Origin: a virus
Length of the DNA: 35,498 nucleotides
Virus record (IMG/VR): IMGVR_UViG_3300030419_000230
Coordinates: 3,658-39,155 of that record
Reading direction: 5' to 3' (one strand)
The notes beneath the pieces were generated by a model. That model was not told where the DNA came from. It saw only the letters and a list, made by a program, of their open reading frames with translations, and made no database searches. Within the stretch, counting starts at the first letter, position 1; every line of letters starts with the position of its first letter. A program made the position numbers and the translations under genes. This document shows, one piece after another, positions 17,874 to 23,852 of the stretch.

Positions 17874-19979
17874 TTAACCTCCTACCTCAGTAAATGCGAC
17901 ACCTGTTCTAGTTGCAATGAAGTTCAGAGTGATGAAGTTAATTGATCTTGATGGTTTGACAAAGATGTCAGCAACAAACTCGTTTCTGTCTATGACTTCA
18001 CCAGTATTGTTAGTTCCATCTGCGACCACACTAAAGTCTTGTATACCTCGTCTGCCTTGAACATCTCGTAAGAAAGGTTCTACCAAGTTTCTAAATTGAG
18101 CTCTTGTAAATTCGTCATTAAACTCAAAGAGTTGGAACTTGGCCGCAGTTGCGATTGCCTTTTCCATAACCAAGAACAATCGTCTGACATTAATTCTGTC
18201 AAACGCACTTGGTTTAGTTAATGCAGTCTTATCTCCAAAGAGTGTTACTCCTTGTCCAGAAAAGTTCACCACAGGATTTACTCTTGCACGATAAAGTCTA
18301 TCTCTTTCTGAACCACTTGGATTATAAGAAAGTTTAATTGCACCTCTTACTCTACCTCTGTTAAATCCAGCAGGAGAAAACCATGCATCAGCAACTTGGT
18401 CTGTGTTTGCACAAAGTCCAGCAGTGTCTCCGTTAAGTGGTACAAATCTGAATAAGTCATTGTACTTATCGTACATATACTTGTATCCACTATCGAATAC
18501 CACATAAGATGATGATGGACATAAATCAAATGCAGTTATGACATTATCTGTTTGGGTGGTTGAACTATTAACACCAACTGTTGCAGAACGATATGGAGAA
18601 ACAAATGCAATACAATCTTTTCTCTCTTCTACTAACTTAGTTATCATTGTAACGTGTGTGTCTTGAGTTGATGAAGTATCACCAGCTCCACCACCTCGTC
18701 CTCCAAGAACTAAGTTAACATCTATTGATTCTGTGTCTGCAAATCTGTTGTATGCAGTATCCAATTCACCAGCTGTTGGTGCATAATCATCAGTTCCACC
18801 AGAAAGTTCACTTCTTGTTGGTAGGTCTAATACTGCGTATGTTGATGAACCATCTTCCAAGTCGATATTATCACCATTGTCTGTTGAGTCACTATCAGTA
18901 CCATCTAGTAAGAGTTTGTCACCAGCGTTTGATGATGAACTATCAGTACCATCTAGTAATATATCACCCTCTTGAGTTCCATCTACATCAGTTCCCCAGT
19001 TTGTTCCACTAGAATTATGATCCATCCAGTATACATATTGTGATTGTCTGTAGATAACATCTGGGTAGAAGATACTATCTCCTTGTGGCCCTTTTGCGTT
19101 ACTATTAACAGAGAGGTTTGCATATGTTTCTAGAACTGCGTTTGTTCTTTGTCCGTCTGCATCCACACTGAAACCAGATAGTGAACCAGTTGTATCGTAA
19201 ACAACTATGTGTACTTCGTCTAATGTACCTCTGTCATTTTCAGATGCATATGTTGATGTGCCTGGAGCTGCATCAAACAGATCGTAAAATCTCCAACGTC
19301 TACGAATGTTTGTTCCACTTGAAACTGTACTCTGTAAACCCTCACCATTTGCGTTATCTTTTAGTTTGATAACTATGGTATCTGAACTTCCACTATCGTT
19401 AACAGATGTTACTTCGTATTCATGTCCACCAGACTCACCAAAGTTTACCATGTCACCAACACTAAAAACAGTCGCATCTGAAACAGATATTGTTGTCTGT
19501 CCAGCAGCCTCTTCTGCACTTGTAGTTGTGACAGCGTTTTGTGAGTAATTGTTTGCACTAGAACATATTGAAACTCCTAATGAGTTACCAAGTGTTCCAG
19601 CATCTCTTGCAGCCCATTCTCCAACTGAACCTTGTCCTGTTGAGTAAGATTCTAGATAATGGTCTGTATTTCGTATTAGTAGTCCTGTACTACCAGCAGT
19701 TGCGTTTAGTACACCAGACTCCGCTCTAACCACAAGAAGTTGGTTTGTGTACGACAGAAAGTTAGCCGCAGTAAACCATGTTTCGTAATGATTACTTGTA
19801 GTTTGGGGTTTACCAAATATCTTTACCAGTTCTTCTTCTGAAGATATAGAAGTTACTTCAGAAACAGGCCCCTTTTCAGCGGCCATTGCAATTGCACCAA
19901 TTGATGTTGCAACTGCTGGTACGACATTTGTTAAATCTATTTCTTTGACTTTAACGCCAGGAGAAACTAAAAATGCCAT
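17874..19979 (-). CDS. gp18: Tail sheath protein gp18 with repeat insertion
   Basis: Contractile sheath subunit. The N-terminus MAFLVSPGVKVKEIDLTNVVP and the C-terminal part (AAKFQLFEFNDEFTRAQFRN, GRRGIQDFSVVADG, then FVKPSRSINFITLNFIATR) are standard for T4-like sheath proteins. In the middle, two adjacent Asp/Gly-rich module copies (18825-18965) are inserted in a surface region; they share a 21-nt exact DNA repeat. 701 aa against 659 in T4. The ribosome site is GAGGGAG, and a late promoter TATAAATA lies 43 nt upstream of the start. Confidence 0.96.
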   Translation of the reverse strand: MAFLVSPGVKVKEIDLTNVVPAVATSIGAIAMAAEKGPVSEVTSISSEEELVKIFGKPQTTSNHYETWFTAANFLSYTNQLLVVRAESGVLNATAGSTGLLIRNTDHYLESYSTGQGSVGEWAARDAGTLGNSLGVSICSSANNYSQNAVTTTSAEEAAGQTTISVSDATVFSVGDMVNFGESGGHEYEVTSVNDSGSSDTIVIKLKDNANGEGLQSTVSSGTNIRRRWRFYDLFDAAPGTSTYASENDRGTLDEVHIVVYDTTGSLSGFSVDADGQRTNAVLETYANLSVNSNAKGPQGDSIFYPDVIYRQSQYVYWMDHNSSGTNWGTDVDGTQEGDILLDGTDSSSSNAGDKLLLDGTDSDSTDNGDNIDLEDGSSTYAVLDLPTRSELSGGTDDYAPTAGELDTAYNRFADTESIDVNLVLGGRGGGAGDTSSTQDTHVTMITKLVEERKDCIAFVSPYRSATVGVNSSTTQTDNVITAFDLCPSSSYVVFDSGYKYMYDKYNDLFRFVPLNGDTAGLCANTDQVADAWFSPAGFNRGRVRGAIKLSYNPSGSERDRLYRARVNPVVNFSGQGVTLFGDKTALTKPSAFDRINVRRLFLVMEKAIATAAKFQLFEFNDEFTRAQFRNLVEPFLRDVQGRRGIQDFSVVADGTNNTGEVIDRNEFVADIFVKPSRSINFITLNFIATRTGVAFTEVGG
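18825..18965 (-). repeat. Two tandem Asp/Gly-rich module copies inside gp18
   Basis: Encodes DILLDGTDSSSSNAGDK joined to LLLDGTDSDSTDNGDNIDLE and a short tail ending YAVLD. The two copies share an exact 21-nt DNA word (18891-18911 and 18939-18959), 48 nt apart, showing local duplication. Confidence 0.75.
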
Positions 19980-20021: not shown

Positions 20022-20029
20022 TATTTATA
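20022..20029 (-). promoter_or_regulatory. T4-type late promoter for gp18
   Basis: Exact TATAAATA on the minus strand, 43 nt before the gp18 ATG (19979), in the divergent gap between gp18 and the plus-strand cassette. Confidence 0.7.
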
Positions 20030-20070
20030 AAAAACAACATTCTAAAAACTATACCTTTATATCTACAAGT

Positions 20071-20078
20071 TATAAATA
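20071..20078 (+). promoter_or_regulatory. Possible late promoter for the plus-strand cassette
   Basis: Exact TATAAATA on the plus strand, divergent from the gp18 late promoter with 41 nt between them. It ends only 5 nt before the ATG at 20084, so a transcript would be leaderless or nearly so for the first gene. Function is therefore less sure than for the gp18 box. Confidence 0.45.
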
Positions 20079-20083
20079 ATACT

Positions 20084-20368
20084 ATGAATGAACATTATGA
20101 CAAATATAAAGAAACCATCAAAAAGGTTGCAAGAAGACACAGGTTGTTAAAAGATAAATGGATTACAGATTATTTGATGTCTAACTCCTGCTCTCATTGT
20201 GGTGAATCAGAATTGATTTGTTTACAATTTTACCCAGATGATCGTAAGATAAGAGCTATGTCCAAAAGATCTGAGGATAAAACTGAGGTATTAGAGTATA
20301 TATCAAACAACGAAATTGTATGTAGAAATTGTTTTCAGAAGTTAGATTCTGATATTATTACAAAATAG
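20084..20368 (+). CDS. Small zinc-binding, degenerate HNH-like protein, 94 aa
   Basis: First gene of the two-gene plus-strand island. It has two CxxC pairs, SCSHCGESEL and CRNCFQKL, spaced as in HNH endonucleases, plus a helical basic N-terminus (ARRHRLLKDKW). In active HNH proteins the segment after the first CxxC carries FHH; here it reads LQFYPDD, so the catalytic His pair is missing and the last HNH His is replaced (NCFQK rather than NCHxx). It may be a nuclease-derived DNA-binding protein or a decayed homing-type gene. Zinc binding is inferred from the Cys pairs. Confidence 0.65.
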   Translation: MNEHYDKYKETIKKVARRHRLLKDKWITDYLMSNSCSHCGESELICLQFYPDDRKIRAMSKRSEDKTEVLEYISNNEIVCRNCFQKLDSDIITK

Positions 20369-20375
20369 GTAAGAT

Positions 20376-21068
20376 ATGAACAATTGGGAAAATGATCTGG
20401 ATAAAAGAACAAGTGCAGGCGCTATGGGAGACAAAGTTCCAGAAGAAATATTAGATTGGTTAAAAAGTATTATATCTAAAACAAAAGATAAAAAAAACTT
20501 AGACTTTACTAATAATCTGGCAGGAAATTTAAAAGAAGAATATCTTATATTTATGCGACCAACTCAGTCTAACAAAAATCGTCAAGGATTAGTAAAATCT
20601 GATGATATGAATTTTTTAAATTATCAAAAATATATTGATAGTTTATGTTTCAATCCTTTCTTCAAAAACTTTTGGGAAAATATAAATATTCTATCAGAAA
20701 ACAGACCTTTGCAAATAGACTCATCATGGGTTAATTTTCAAAAAAAATATGAATACAATACAATGCATGATCACTGTGGTTTATTTTCGTGGGTAATATT
20801 TGTAAACATACCATATGATTTAGAGGAAGAGGAAAAATGTTTTGCTACTGGAGGGCCTACAACGACCACCTCTAAATTTTTCTTTGCATATCCTAGTAAT
20901 TCCTCATATTTCAAGAGTGCTATAAAAACATCCGTATTAAATGTGGATAAAAGTTATGAGGGAAAAATAATTATATTTCCAGCACACACACTACATGGTG
21001 TGAATCCATTTTATACAAGTGATGAATATAGAATAACTGTATCTGGTAATATGGTTTTTCAAGTTTAA
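20376..21068 (+). CDS. Putative Fe(II)/2-oxoglutarate oxygenase, 230 aa (plus strand)
   Basis: Dioxygenase-like protein. Iron site H-x-H in NTMHDHCGLFSWVIFVNIP, distal His in FPAHTLHGVNPFYTSDE and co-substrate Arg in YRITVSGNM. These blocks align with the minus-strand gene at 2691-3347, making the pair paralogous. The first 90 residues (including KVPEEILDWLKSIIS) have no known motif. It follows the HNH-like gene by 7 nt and ends immediately against the convergent gp17 stop with no base between. Substrate unknown. Confidence 0.75.
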   Translation: MNNWENDLDKRTSAGAMGDKVPEEILDWLKSIISKTKDKKNLDFTNNLAGNLKEEYLIFMRPTQSNKNRQGLVKSDDMNFLNYQKYIDSLCFNPFFKNFWENINILSENRPLQIDSSWVNFQKKYEYNTMHDHCGLFSWVIFVNIPYDLEEEEKCFATGGPTTTTSKFFFAYPSNSSYFKSAIKTSVLNVDKSYEGKIIIFPAHTLHGVNPFYTSDEYRITVSGNMVFQV

Positions 21069-22718
21069 TTACCAATTAGAATCATAGTTTCTAACTATTG
21101 GATTCCATTTAGTTCCATACTCGTCCACCATATTTCCTATATTCTCATCCTCTAATCCATTAACGACAAATCCAAATGGAGCCATATCCTGTTCCAACTG
21201 GTCTTGTTGTTCTTTGAACATTTGTTCTCGTATGTCATTGTTTGTTAGTTCTTTGAAATAAGTCTGGTCTGTCGCCCAACCAAATATAAACATACACGCA
21301 ACCAAATCATCATTACAACCATCATCGGCTTCAAATGATGACCCCTTGACTATAAATGTAGATAGTTCGTTAATACAATCAAAATCCTCAACGATTATTT
21401 TATCACTTTCTAATAGTTGTTTAAGATTAGAACAACCAATCTTTTTTACTGCTTTTGTTGTTCTCACCCCCAGTTGTGCTTTACCTCCAGAGAAACCACC
21501 ACCCATAATCTGACCAGCACGACCTCTCATAGATGCCATAACTAGGTTATCATATTCCAAATCAAATTGCATTGCGTTTGCAACTTGTTCTCCTATATCA
21601 TTTACCTCTATAAGAACAAATGCTTGATTATACGCTCTTGCAACATGATATATTTTTTGTGGAAACATCATAGGTTTCACTTCGTTATCTTTAAACTTTG
21701 CAACGATACGATAAGGAACTTTTGTAACATCAAAAACAACATACGCAGAGTAGTCATTCTTCGTTCCTCTTGATACGTCTGCACACATGAAGTATGTGTG
21801 GTCTTTTTGTGGTTGTTCATATACATCTAATCCAGCGTTTGATGTTTCTGGTGTTTTATATGCGAGTGTTCTTAATTTAGATGGTGTGATAAGTGTGTCG
21901 ATAGAACCAAGAAACTCACACTCAAATTCTGTTTGGAATTGTTGTTCACTTGTGTTTGCGATTGTTTCTTTTTTCCACTTGTCATCACGACCAGGCACTT
22001 CACTCCAATGTACCTCTATAGGTATGTAAGAGTTTCGTCTTTCCTCTGCATCTGTCCAGAGTTTATAGAACATATTCATACCATGTGGAGTAGAAACAAT
22101 CATAACTTTTGTAGTTTTACCAGATGATATTGTGGGATACACAGAACTGAAGAACTGTTCTGCAACATTAGATGGAACATATGCGAACTCGTCTAAGAAT
22201 ATAATATTATAAGAACCACCACGAACTGCACTAGCAGAAGTAGACGAAGCCAAAATCTTTGATCCGTTTTCAAGTTCAAGACTCCCTTTGTTCCATGACA
22301 TAACTCCTTGTTGTAACCATTTAGGTAGGTGTTCGTATGCAAGTTGTAGTCGTCCTAATAAATCTCTTGCAGTTGCAGCCTTATTCGCAAGTATCGCTAT
22401 GTTAACACTTGGGTTGAAAAGTGAGTAGTGTAGTAGATAGGATATCATAGTCGTGGATTTACCAGACTGTCTTGGTAACTTACAGATTGTAAAACGATTT
22501 TTGTGGAACGTACCAACCATTTCCTTTTGAAAGGGGTACATCTTAAATGGTATTAAACCCTCGTCCAGAGATACAATTCGTACATAATTTTGGATGAAGT
22601 AGAGCGGGTCTTCCATACATCTTGCGTACTCTTGGACTTGTTTTTTTGTCCATTGTTGTTGGACATTAGCCTTTTTAAGATTCGGATTACCCAGATATGT
22701 TGCATCATTGATTGTCAT
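21069..22718 (-). CDS. gp17: Terminase large subunit gp17
   Basis: DNA-packaging motor with ATPase and nuclease domains. Walker A LPRQSGKST is at residues 81-89, Walker B NIIFLDEFAYV at 171-181, and the coupling motif in KVMIVSTPHG near 204-213. The C-terminal RNase H-like nuclease begins FMCADVSRGTKNDYSAYVV (Asp314) with LIEVNDIGE and a later DDGCNDDLV acidic block. Length 549 aa. The start overlaps the upstream oxygenase by 14 nt. In T4, gp16 directly precedes gp17; here two oxygenase genes are inserted between them. Confidence 0.96.
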   Translation of the reverse strand: MTINDATYLGNPNLKKANVQQQWTKKQVQEYARCMEDPLYFIQNYVRIVSLDEGLIPFKMYPFQKEMVGTFHKNRFTICKLPRQSGKSTTMISYLLHYSLFNPSVNIAILANKAATARDLLGRLQLAYEHLPKWLQQGVMSWNKGSLELENGSKILASSTSASAVRGGSYNIIFLDEFAYVPSNVAEQFFSSVYPTISSGKTTKVMIVSTPHGMNMFYKLWTDAEERRNSYIPIEVHWSEVPGRDDKWKKETIANTSEQQFQTEFECEFLGSIDTLITPSKLRTLAYKTPETSNAGLDVYEQPQKDHTYFMCADVSRGTKNDYSAYVVFDVTKVPYRIVAKFKDNEVKPMMFPQKIYHVARAYNQAFVLIEVNDIGEQVANAMQFDLEYDNLVMASMRGRAGQIMGGGFSGGKAQLGVRTTKAVKKIGCSNLKQLLESDKIIVEDFDCINELSTFIVKGSSFEADDGCNDDLVACMFIFGWATDQTYFKELTNNDIREQMFKEQQDQLEQDMAPFGFVVNGLEDENIGNMVDEYGTKWNPIVRNYDSNW

Positions 22719-23283
22719 GGAATTTCCACCACCCTGTTATGATATATTTATCTGAGTCATGGTTTGTAACTCCCCTATGAGTGTGTGTCCAGGCTGCAGG
22801 CCATATCACTGTTAATCCTTTATGACATGGAGTTGTAGTTTTTTGATGAAAGAACTCTGTACCAGCATTGTCTAAAGTATTTAAATAAGTCATAAAAACT
22901 AAATGTCTATGTAAAACAATATCATGACCACTATTTTCCATGTGCCAATTATAAAAACCTTCTCCAGGCTTATAGTGTTGTATTTTTATGGGATCAAGTA
23001 TATTATAAGAGTGTACACTATCACAGTAAGGATATCTTTCCTTATAAGAACGTAATGCAATATTTAAATGATAAACATAATCTCTCATTTCACTATGGTC
23101 TAAATCTAATTCTACATCTGTTGACCTTTTCCAATCTGGTTTTTTTTCATTACCCCAGTAGTTTGAACCATCAATCCAATGATCTTTTTCAGTGTGAAAG
23201 AGTTCAATAAGATTATCACAAATTTCTTCTGGTATATACCACCCTCCAATAAAACTACCATAGTCTATATCATATTCTTTCAT
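22705..23283 (-). CDS. Prolyl-hydroxylase-like 2OG oxygenase, tandem copy 1, 192 aa
   Basis: Dioxygenase of a type with an N-terminal GGWYIPEEICDNLIELF and a core QHYKPGEGFYNWHMEN. The iron site is H-x-E (WHME) instead of the usual H-x-D. Then come RHLVFMTYLNTLDNAGTEFF and a distal His in WPAAWTHTHRGV; a Lys in DKYIITGWW takes the usual Arg position for 2-oxoglutarate, as in several P4H enzymes. It is about half-identical to the next gene by eye, and the DNA repeat at 22854-22910 confirms common origin. It is coupled to gp17 by a 14-nt overlap. Confidence 0.8.
   Translation of the reverse strand: MKEYDIDYGSFIGGWYIPEEICDNLIELFHTEKDHWIDGSNYWGNEKKPDWKRSTDVELDLDHSEMRDYVYHLNIALRSYKERYPYCDSVHSYNILDPIKIQHYKPGEGFYNWHMENSGHDIVLHRHLVFMTYLNTLDNAGTEFFHQKTTTPCHKGLTVIWPAAWTHTHRGVTNHDSDKYIITGWWKFHDNQ
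22854..22910 (-). repeat. Duplicated segment, copy 1 (oxygenase pair)
   Basis: 57 nt matching 23441-23497 with only two mismatches, at homologous codons of the two tandem oxygenases (coding for the RHLVFMTYLN region). It shows gene duplication, or later gene conversion that kept this stretch alike. Confidence 0.8.
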
Positions 23284-23852
23284 TTCATTTTCTCCTGTTG
23301 TTCATTAAAACTATACCATCCTGTCGTGATGTATTTTTCACCAACATTGTTTACAATACCTTTGTGCGTGTGTGTCCAAGTTGCAGGCCATATCAATGTC
23401 AATCCTTTTTCACATGGTGTTGTAACATTCTGATATAAAAACTCTGTACCAGCATTTTCTAAACTATTTAAATAAGTCATAAAAACTAAATGTCTATATG
23501 TGTGCACACCTTTGCCATTATTTTCAAAATGCCATTTATGAAATCCTTCACCTGGCTTATAGTGTTGTATTTTTACATTTTCTTTTATAGTGTAAGAACT
23601 AACTTGGTCACTATGACAATATCTTTTTTTATAATTGTTTAAACACTCTTGTAAATGATCTAGATACTTTTGTATTTTTAAATAAGATGGTTCTATGTAC
23701 ATCTCTTTAAATTTTTTCCAATCTTCTTTCCCATCTTCCCAATGATTTTTTTCTGAGTGGAATAGTTTAATAAGATCGTCACATATTTCATTTGGAATGT
23801 ACCATCCACCTATGAAAGTTTTAGTATCTATTTCAAAATTTTTTTCCATCAT
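23280..23852 (-). CDS. Prolyl-hydroxylase-like 2OG oxygenase, tandem copy 2, 190 aa
   Basis: Second member of the tandem pair. Same order of blocks: FIGGWYIPNEICDDLIKLF, QHYKPGEGFHKWHFEN (H-x-E again), RHLVFMTYLNSLENAGTEF, WPATWTHTHKGI and a Lys in EKYITTGWY. The N-terminal third is more diverged and shorter than in copy 1. Two adjacent ATGs (23852, 23849) are possible starts; no good ribosome site distinguishes them. It overlaps gp16 by about 20 nt and copy 1 by 4 nt. Both copies keep the active-site residues, suggesting that both are functional. Confidence 0.8.
   Translation of the reverse strand: MMEKNFEIDTKTFIGGWYIPNEICDDLIKLFHSEKNHWEDGKEDWKKFKEMYIEPSYLKIQKYLDHLQECLNNYKKRYCHSDQVSSYTIKENVKIQHYKPGEGFHKWHFENNGKGVHTYRHLVFMTYLNSLENAGTEFLYQNVTTPCEKGLTLIWPATWTHTHKGIVNNVGEKYITTGWYSFNEQQEKMK
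23441..23497 (-). repeat. Duplicated segment, copy 2 (oxygenase pair)
   Basis: Partner of 22854-22910; see that entry. Spacing between copies is 587 nt, about one gene length, as expected from tandem duplication of the whole gene. Confidence 0.8.

Follow-up and report, generated by a model that had tools for sequence, protein, structure and literature searches.

Most late genes of T4-like phages are expressed with a leader that contains a ribosome-binding site. The locus described here carries late promoters of the T4 type, which are gp55-dependent, with the same exact 8-bp box, TATAAATA (PMC2988020), and two related phages, Methylophilales phage Melnitz and Pelagibacter phage HTVC008M, have annotated genes for the late sigma factor and coactivator. 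It departs from the T4-type promoter in that the box of its first gene, orf1, is fixed 5 nt before the ATG, with an expected leader of zero length. A second likeness is to phage HNH endonucleases (PHROG_2255, PHROG_3106). The orf1 protein shares their treble-clef zinc fold, cysteine spacing and invariant Asn, but its catalytic His and both metal ligands are replaced in all members, and the gene is fixed at one locus. Packaging-associated HNH proteins of the HK97 gp74 type adjoin the terminase and need their catalytic residues; orf1 also places an HNH fold beside the terminase, but without these residues. Many cyanophages carry a 76-aa 'endonuclease VII' gene (PHROG_4723) behind gp17, a small zinc-finger gene in the same gap between gp17 and gp18. 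Unlike orf1, it lies in direct orientation and overlaps the gp17 end. The two genes match different halves of PHROG_2255, and profile comparison gave their homology a probability of 1.2%, so the cyanophage gene is taken as a parallel only. Endonuclease VII was not found elsewhere in six related genomes.

The ingredients of the locus, namely the late promoter, the HNH fold and a slot for accessory genes, are thus already known. What appears to be undescribed is the fixed geometry of a predicted leaderless start and the fixation of a pseudo-nuclease throughout a clade; neither was found in a literature search that left most subscription journals outside.

Inverted genes between gp18 and gp17

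The window, a stretch of 35,498 nt within a viral fragment of 39,155 bases, contains two plus-strand genes between gp18 (tail sheath; 17874-19979, minus strand) and gp17 (terminase large subunit; 21069-22718, minus strand). The gp17 product shares 71% identity with its Melnitz counterpart and 68% with the one in HTVC008M. The first gene, orf1 (20084-20368), is divergent from gp18 and encodes an HNH-fold zinc protein of 94 aa without catalytic His residues. The second, orf2 (20376-21068), is convergent with gp17 and encodes a 2OG-Fe(II) oxygenase of 230 aa (PF13759, PHROG_81), which we regard as accessory cargo. Other plus-strand ORFs of at least 90 aa in the window all lie over minus-strand genes, as judged by coordinates alone. 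The last base of the orf2 TAA is 21068, and the gp17 stop follows at once (21069-21071), so that no base separates the two. No terminator-like site was found 3' of orf2; a single weak match (20987-21002) lies inside orf2, and chance alone would give 0.6 matches. An Rfam scan of the window gave no match. The late boxes of orf1 (20071-20078, plus strand) and gp18 (20022-20029, minus strand; gp18 ATG 42 nt downstream) both read TATAAATA and stand back to back, 41 nt apart. An earlier note on this DNA had described two plus-strand genes with a late promoter of their own, the distance between the boxes, touching stops and no terminator between the convergent genes, and all of this was borne out. 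Its picture of a compact convergent arrangement with an inserted gene is likewise supported. Two more 2OG-Fe(II) oxygenase genes (22705-23283 and 23280-23852, both minus strand) lie between gp17 and gp16, so that three oxygenases surround the terminase genes in the window.

Related loci were gathered in three ways, by gp17, by orf2 and by orf1. In this first sample of marine contigs, an inverted orf1 relative was present between gp17 and gp18 wherever a contig held both; contigs without orf1 stop before gp18 or break inside cargo. A second sample of 78 loci, with some contigs common to the first, was chosen by the orf1 profile alone. Both flanks were present in 74 of these loci and one flank in the other 4, and order and orientation were identical in all. 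In Melnitz the relative is gene 200, among only about a dozen reversed genes of that phage. No gene was found at this place in HTVC008M, P-SSM4 or ACG-2014d, so orf1 is dispensable for some T4-like phages. In a gp17 tree the orf1 carriers stood apart from HTVC008M and the cyanophages, with weak support for the deep split. Since the gene is inverted in all two-flank loci, Melnitz included, and its carriers group apart in the tree, orf1 is, as judged from these comparisons, ancestral to the Melnitz/pelagiphage-like clade and no newcomer. Sporadic presence among close relatives, which marks free-standing homing endonucleases, was not observed, orf1 being present in all two-flank loci.

Box spacing and the predicted leaderless start

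The box TATAAATA occurs 8 times in the window against 4.1 expected, only mildly above chance, and the box followed by five nucleotides and ATG (TATAAATA-N5-ATG) occurs once against 0.06 expected. The case for a promoter rests on comparative conservation and not on chance statistics of a single window. TATAAATA-N5-ATG was found at 93 of the 94 loci of the first sample that had a readable orf1 start and gp18. In the second sample the N5 spacing was present in 77 of 77 readable loci (the remaining one of the 78 is cut off and lies outside this count), with TATAAATA in 51 and a one-base variant, CATAAATA or TCTAAATA, in 26. The N5 fraction is taken from these two samples; 133 distinct sequences gathered by the N5 pattern itself bear on the counts of start codons and box distances, not on that fraction. 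A conserved TATAAATA box upstream, the sequence mark of a T4-type late promoter, is thus present at orf1. Three loci depart from the N5 spacing: in L021 the promoter is taken over by a NifU-like gene, and L067 and L068 have a longer N-terminus and no box. The L021 gene (3034-3462, minus strand) encodes a NifU_N iron-sulphur scaffold and lies right behind the predicted leaderless late promoter, before the orf1 relative.

The gp18 box is also conserved in the relatives, where it lies anywhere from 31 to 66 nt before the gp18 ATG. Of 125 measurable distinct sequences, 120 had the two boxes 40-44 nt apart and 5 had them 36 nt apart. Between the boxes a conserved TTTATA (20056-20061; TATAAA when read towards gp18) was present in 131 of the 133 distinct sequences. 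This motif, seldom seen at the remaining late boxes of Melnitz and HTVC008M, may serve as a further box for gp18 or as a site for protein binding. Matches to a sigma-70 promoter for orf1 were near chance level.

The T4 late box spans positions -13 to -6, and transcription starts about one turn downstream (PMC2988020). With the box beginning at -13, the N5 spacing places the predicted +1 at 20084, on the A of the orf1 ATG. We infer that the orf1 mRNA is leaderless, carrying the T4 start position over to distant phages. No upstream in-frame start for orf1 was found, and only at codon 32, past a conserved N-terminal stretch, does another ATG occur in frame. An alternative is that the mRNA has a leader after all, the N5 box being kept for another reason, with a start elsewhere or a short leader and ordinary translation initiation. 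One related family, in which N6 is as frequent as N5, speaks for this, but the spacing is exact over deep divergence, the box occupies the Shine-Dalgarno position, and no other plus-strand promoter nearby rises above chance. We consider a leader unlikely, although it is the strongest of the competing explanations.

The same geometry was found at other genes. All 5 TATAAATA-N5-ATG matches in HTVC008M lie at annotated starts, those of a 2OG oxygenase, CsgF, a DNA end protector, gp25 and a baseplate wedge gene. Each other spacing from 0 to 20 nt gave about 0.5 match in this genome, and the Poisson chance of five is about 2e-4. At the remaining late boxes of HTVC008M the spacers are longer, and many contain AGGAG-type sites. 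The N5 spacing was present in all 23 readable relatives of Melnitz gene 112, and for HTVC008M gp25 all 28 relatives counted had a spacing of 5 or 6 nt. Two matches were present in P-SSM4, one of them at the plastoquinol terminal oxidase gene (L192:2300-2315; P-SSM4 107303-107318). The single match in T4 lies off annotated gene starts, and Syn9 and Sf-CH5 had zero matches. A 58-aa ORF (MEKNDIKEGPIQSHNPDER..., in close copies) with its own TATAAATA-N5-ATG was observed at L022:651, L039:1614 and L081:2711. The evidence is evenly poised on whether relatives of Melnitz and HTVC008M among the marine T4-like phages possess a defined class of late mRNAs that lack a leader, the box being fixed 5 nt before the AUG. 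With the same even balance, its members would be orf1, the Melnitz gene-112 family and, in HTVC008M, the genes for the gp25 baseplate protein, CsgF, the DNA end protector and the 2OG oxygenase. If true, such a class would answer to 70S ribosome initiation rather than to Shine-Dalgarno pairing. Perhaps, and this is speculation, it is tied to phage-carried ribosomal protein S21.

The orf1 protein

Both PHROG profiles and structure prediction assign the orf1 protein to the HNH fold. The structure model matched viral folds best at E 1.3e-4 (TMq 0.72). Matches to PDB were weak, both by fold (best Z 3.1) and by sequence search. Pfam scans returned nothing useful for orf1, and PF02945 (T4 endonuclease VII) had no match in orf1 or family members. 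The C4 zinc site of the treble clef (C36, C39, C80, C83) is intact in 79 of 79 distinct members. In an alignment with canonical phage HNH proteins, the catalytic His is replaced by Pro in all 79. The canonical F-D-H reads F-Y-P in orf1, with the Asp of DH changed to Tyr, His or Trp across members, and N-C-H has become N-C-[WFYK], so that this His is also lost in 79 of 79. Only the Asn, which is invariant, is kept of the HNH catalytic and metal set (DH ... N ... H). The rest is conserved: the median dN/dS of 0.09 indicates purifying selection. The N-terminal stretch is basic, with a median net charge of +7 over 24 residues. The earlier note's 'degenerate HNH protein' was right as to the missing catalytic residues, but the adjective misleads, as the whole family lacks them and the remainder is conserved. 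We conclude that orf1 probably encodes a fixed, non-cutting protein rather than a decaying one, a pseudo-nuclease that would bind nucleic acid or protein.

One might instead see a nuclease whose catalytic site is rearranged but still active, serving homing or, like the packaging-associated HNH proteins, packaging. The retained fold and Asn, the adjoining terminase and a His directly after the Pro in 58 of the 79 members would suit this, but the general-base His is Pro throughout, the Asp of DH is replaced, the NCH His is lost in every member, and the window's own group has Asp in place of the shifted His; an active enzyme is therefore improbable. For the pseudo-nuclease, position, presumed late timing and fold favour a role as a late packaging or DNA accessory protein, binding nucleic acid or the terminase, which we put forward tentatively and as something short of an even chance.

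The slot between orf1 and gp17

Most close relatives have no gene between orf1 and gp17. In these cargo-free relatives the 3' ends of the two genes overlap by 11 nt, and the gp17 3' end, TTACCAATTAG (21069-21079 in the window), also codes for the end of orf1. At cargo-bearing loci the overlap sequence stays with gp17, and orf1 gains a new tail. The orf2 protein scores 39.8 bits against PF13759 (cut-off 27) and 1.3e-31 against PHROG_81. Judged by eye, orf2 and its slot relatives have the H-x-H, the distal H and the Arg. The gene is confined to the window and a few close relatives and absent from others whose orf1 is 95-96% identical. In a near-identical contig (L082:2409-3099) orf2 is broken by a one-base difference beside an A run, probably a sequencing error. 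Other members carry different cargo, namely a TAXI-type TRAP binding protein and DctM permease, an ABC binding protein and permease, an Asp/Asn hydroxylase-like gene, or oxygenases in gp17 orientation, and in several of them kilobases of cargo separate orf1 from gp17. By this gene content, orf2 is accessory and the stretch that separates orf1 from gp17 is a slot for cargo. The slot oxygenases are 39-47% identical, while orf1 and gp17 beside them are about 93% identical. Separate insertions of these differing oxygenases were considered, but the proteins form one group with moderate support (89/62), so a single origin may hold despite the low identity.

TAXI-type TRAP genes (binding protein and/or DctM-like permease) were observed in the slot of L040 (3472-5716), L044, L059, L061, L075, L077, L025 and L035; in L066 the two are joined in a deletion remnant. 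No paper combining 'TRAP transporter' and 'pelagiphage' was found in the literature search. The ABC transporter cargo, an NMT1 binding protein with its permease, lies at L038:5623-7322 (minus strand).

The fold family, the loss of catalytic residues, the conservation, the slot and the promoter geometry can be read from the sequences themselves; transcription start, leaderless translation, cotranscription and the role of the protein we infer. The locus is likely to be a resident late unit in inverted orientation, with a leaderless mRNA that encodes a pseudo-HNH protein and extends into a cargo slot. Transcription by the late RNA polymerase of the phage (gp55/gp33/gp45 system) would start at two back-to-back late promoters, for gp18 and orf1. 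The placement of the orf1 box would put +1 on the A of the ATG, and the resulting leaderless mRNA would be translated from its own AUG without a Shine-Dalgarno site. The product would be a domesticated, zinc-binding, basic HNH-fold pseudo-nuclease under purifying selection, possibly acting as a late accessory around DNA packaging that binds nucleic acid or the terminase. The transcript would carry on into the slot gene, here the 2OG-Fe(II) oxygenase, for which a weak ribosome-binding site of its own (AGG, 20367-20369, overlapping the orf1 stop) is predicted from the sequence, and would then run convergently into gp17, with no terminator.

Such a transcript could also act chiefly by antisense or interference, with orf1 transcription into gp17 and the close promoters regulating gp18 and gp17. 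The missing terminator, the touching or overlapping convergent ends and the fixed promoter spacing agree with this. However, orf1 is conserved as a protein (dN/dS as above), so RNA alone is an insufficient explanation, and kilobase cargo parts orf1 from gp17 in several members; we hold antisense as the main function to be doubtful, to the same degree as an active nuclease. Least probable is the earlier note's single two-gene cassette brought by a homing HNH nuclease, since, for all its HNH fold, inverted orientation and variable cargo alongside, orf1 is a fixed gene of the clade, unlike orf2, close relatives have orf1 alone at the same place overlapping gp17 by 11 nt, and catalytic residues are missing in 79 of 79 members. 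The ancestral arrangement that the note had named as the counter-case holds for orf1, with the same place and orientation in relatives, and fails for orf2, which occurs in a subset and gives way to other cargo elsewhere.

The locus joins a nuclease fold probably retired from cutting, yet kept at the terminase, to a defined slot for the uptake of metabolic and transporter genes. The box-to-AUG distance, strict over wide divergence, points to a second, leaderless late start in abundant ocean phages, which is testable in culture with Melnitz and HTVC008M.
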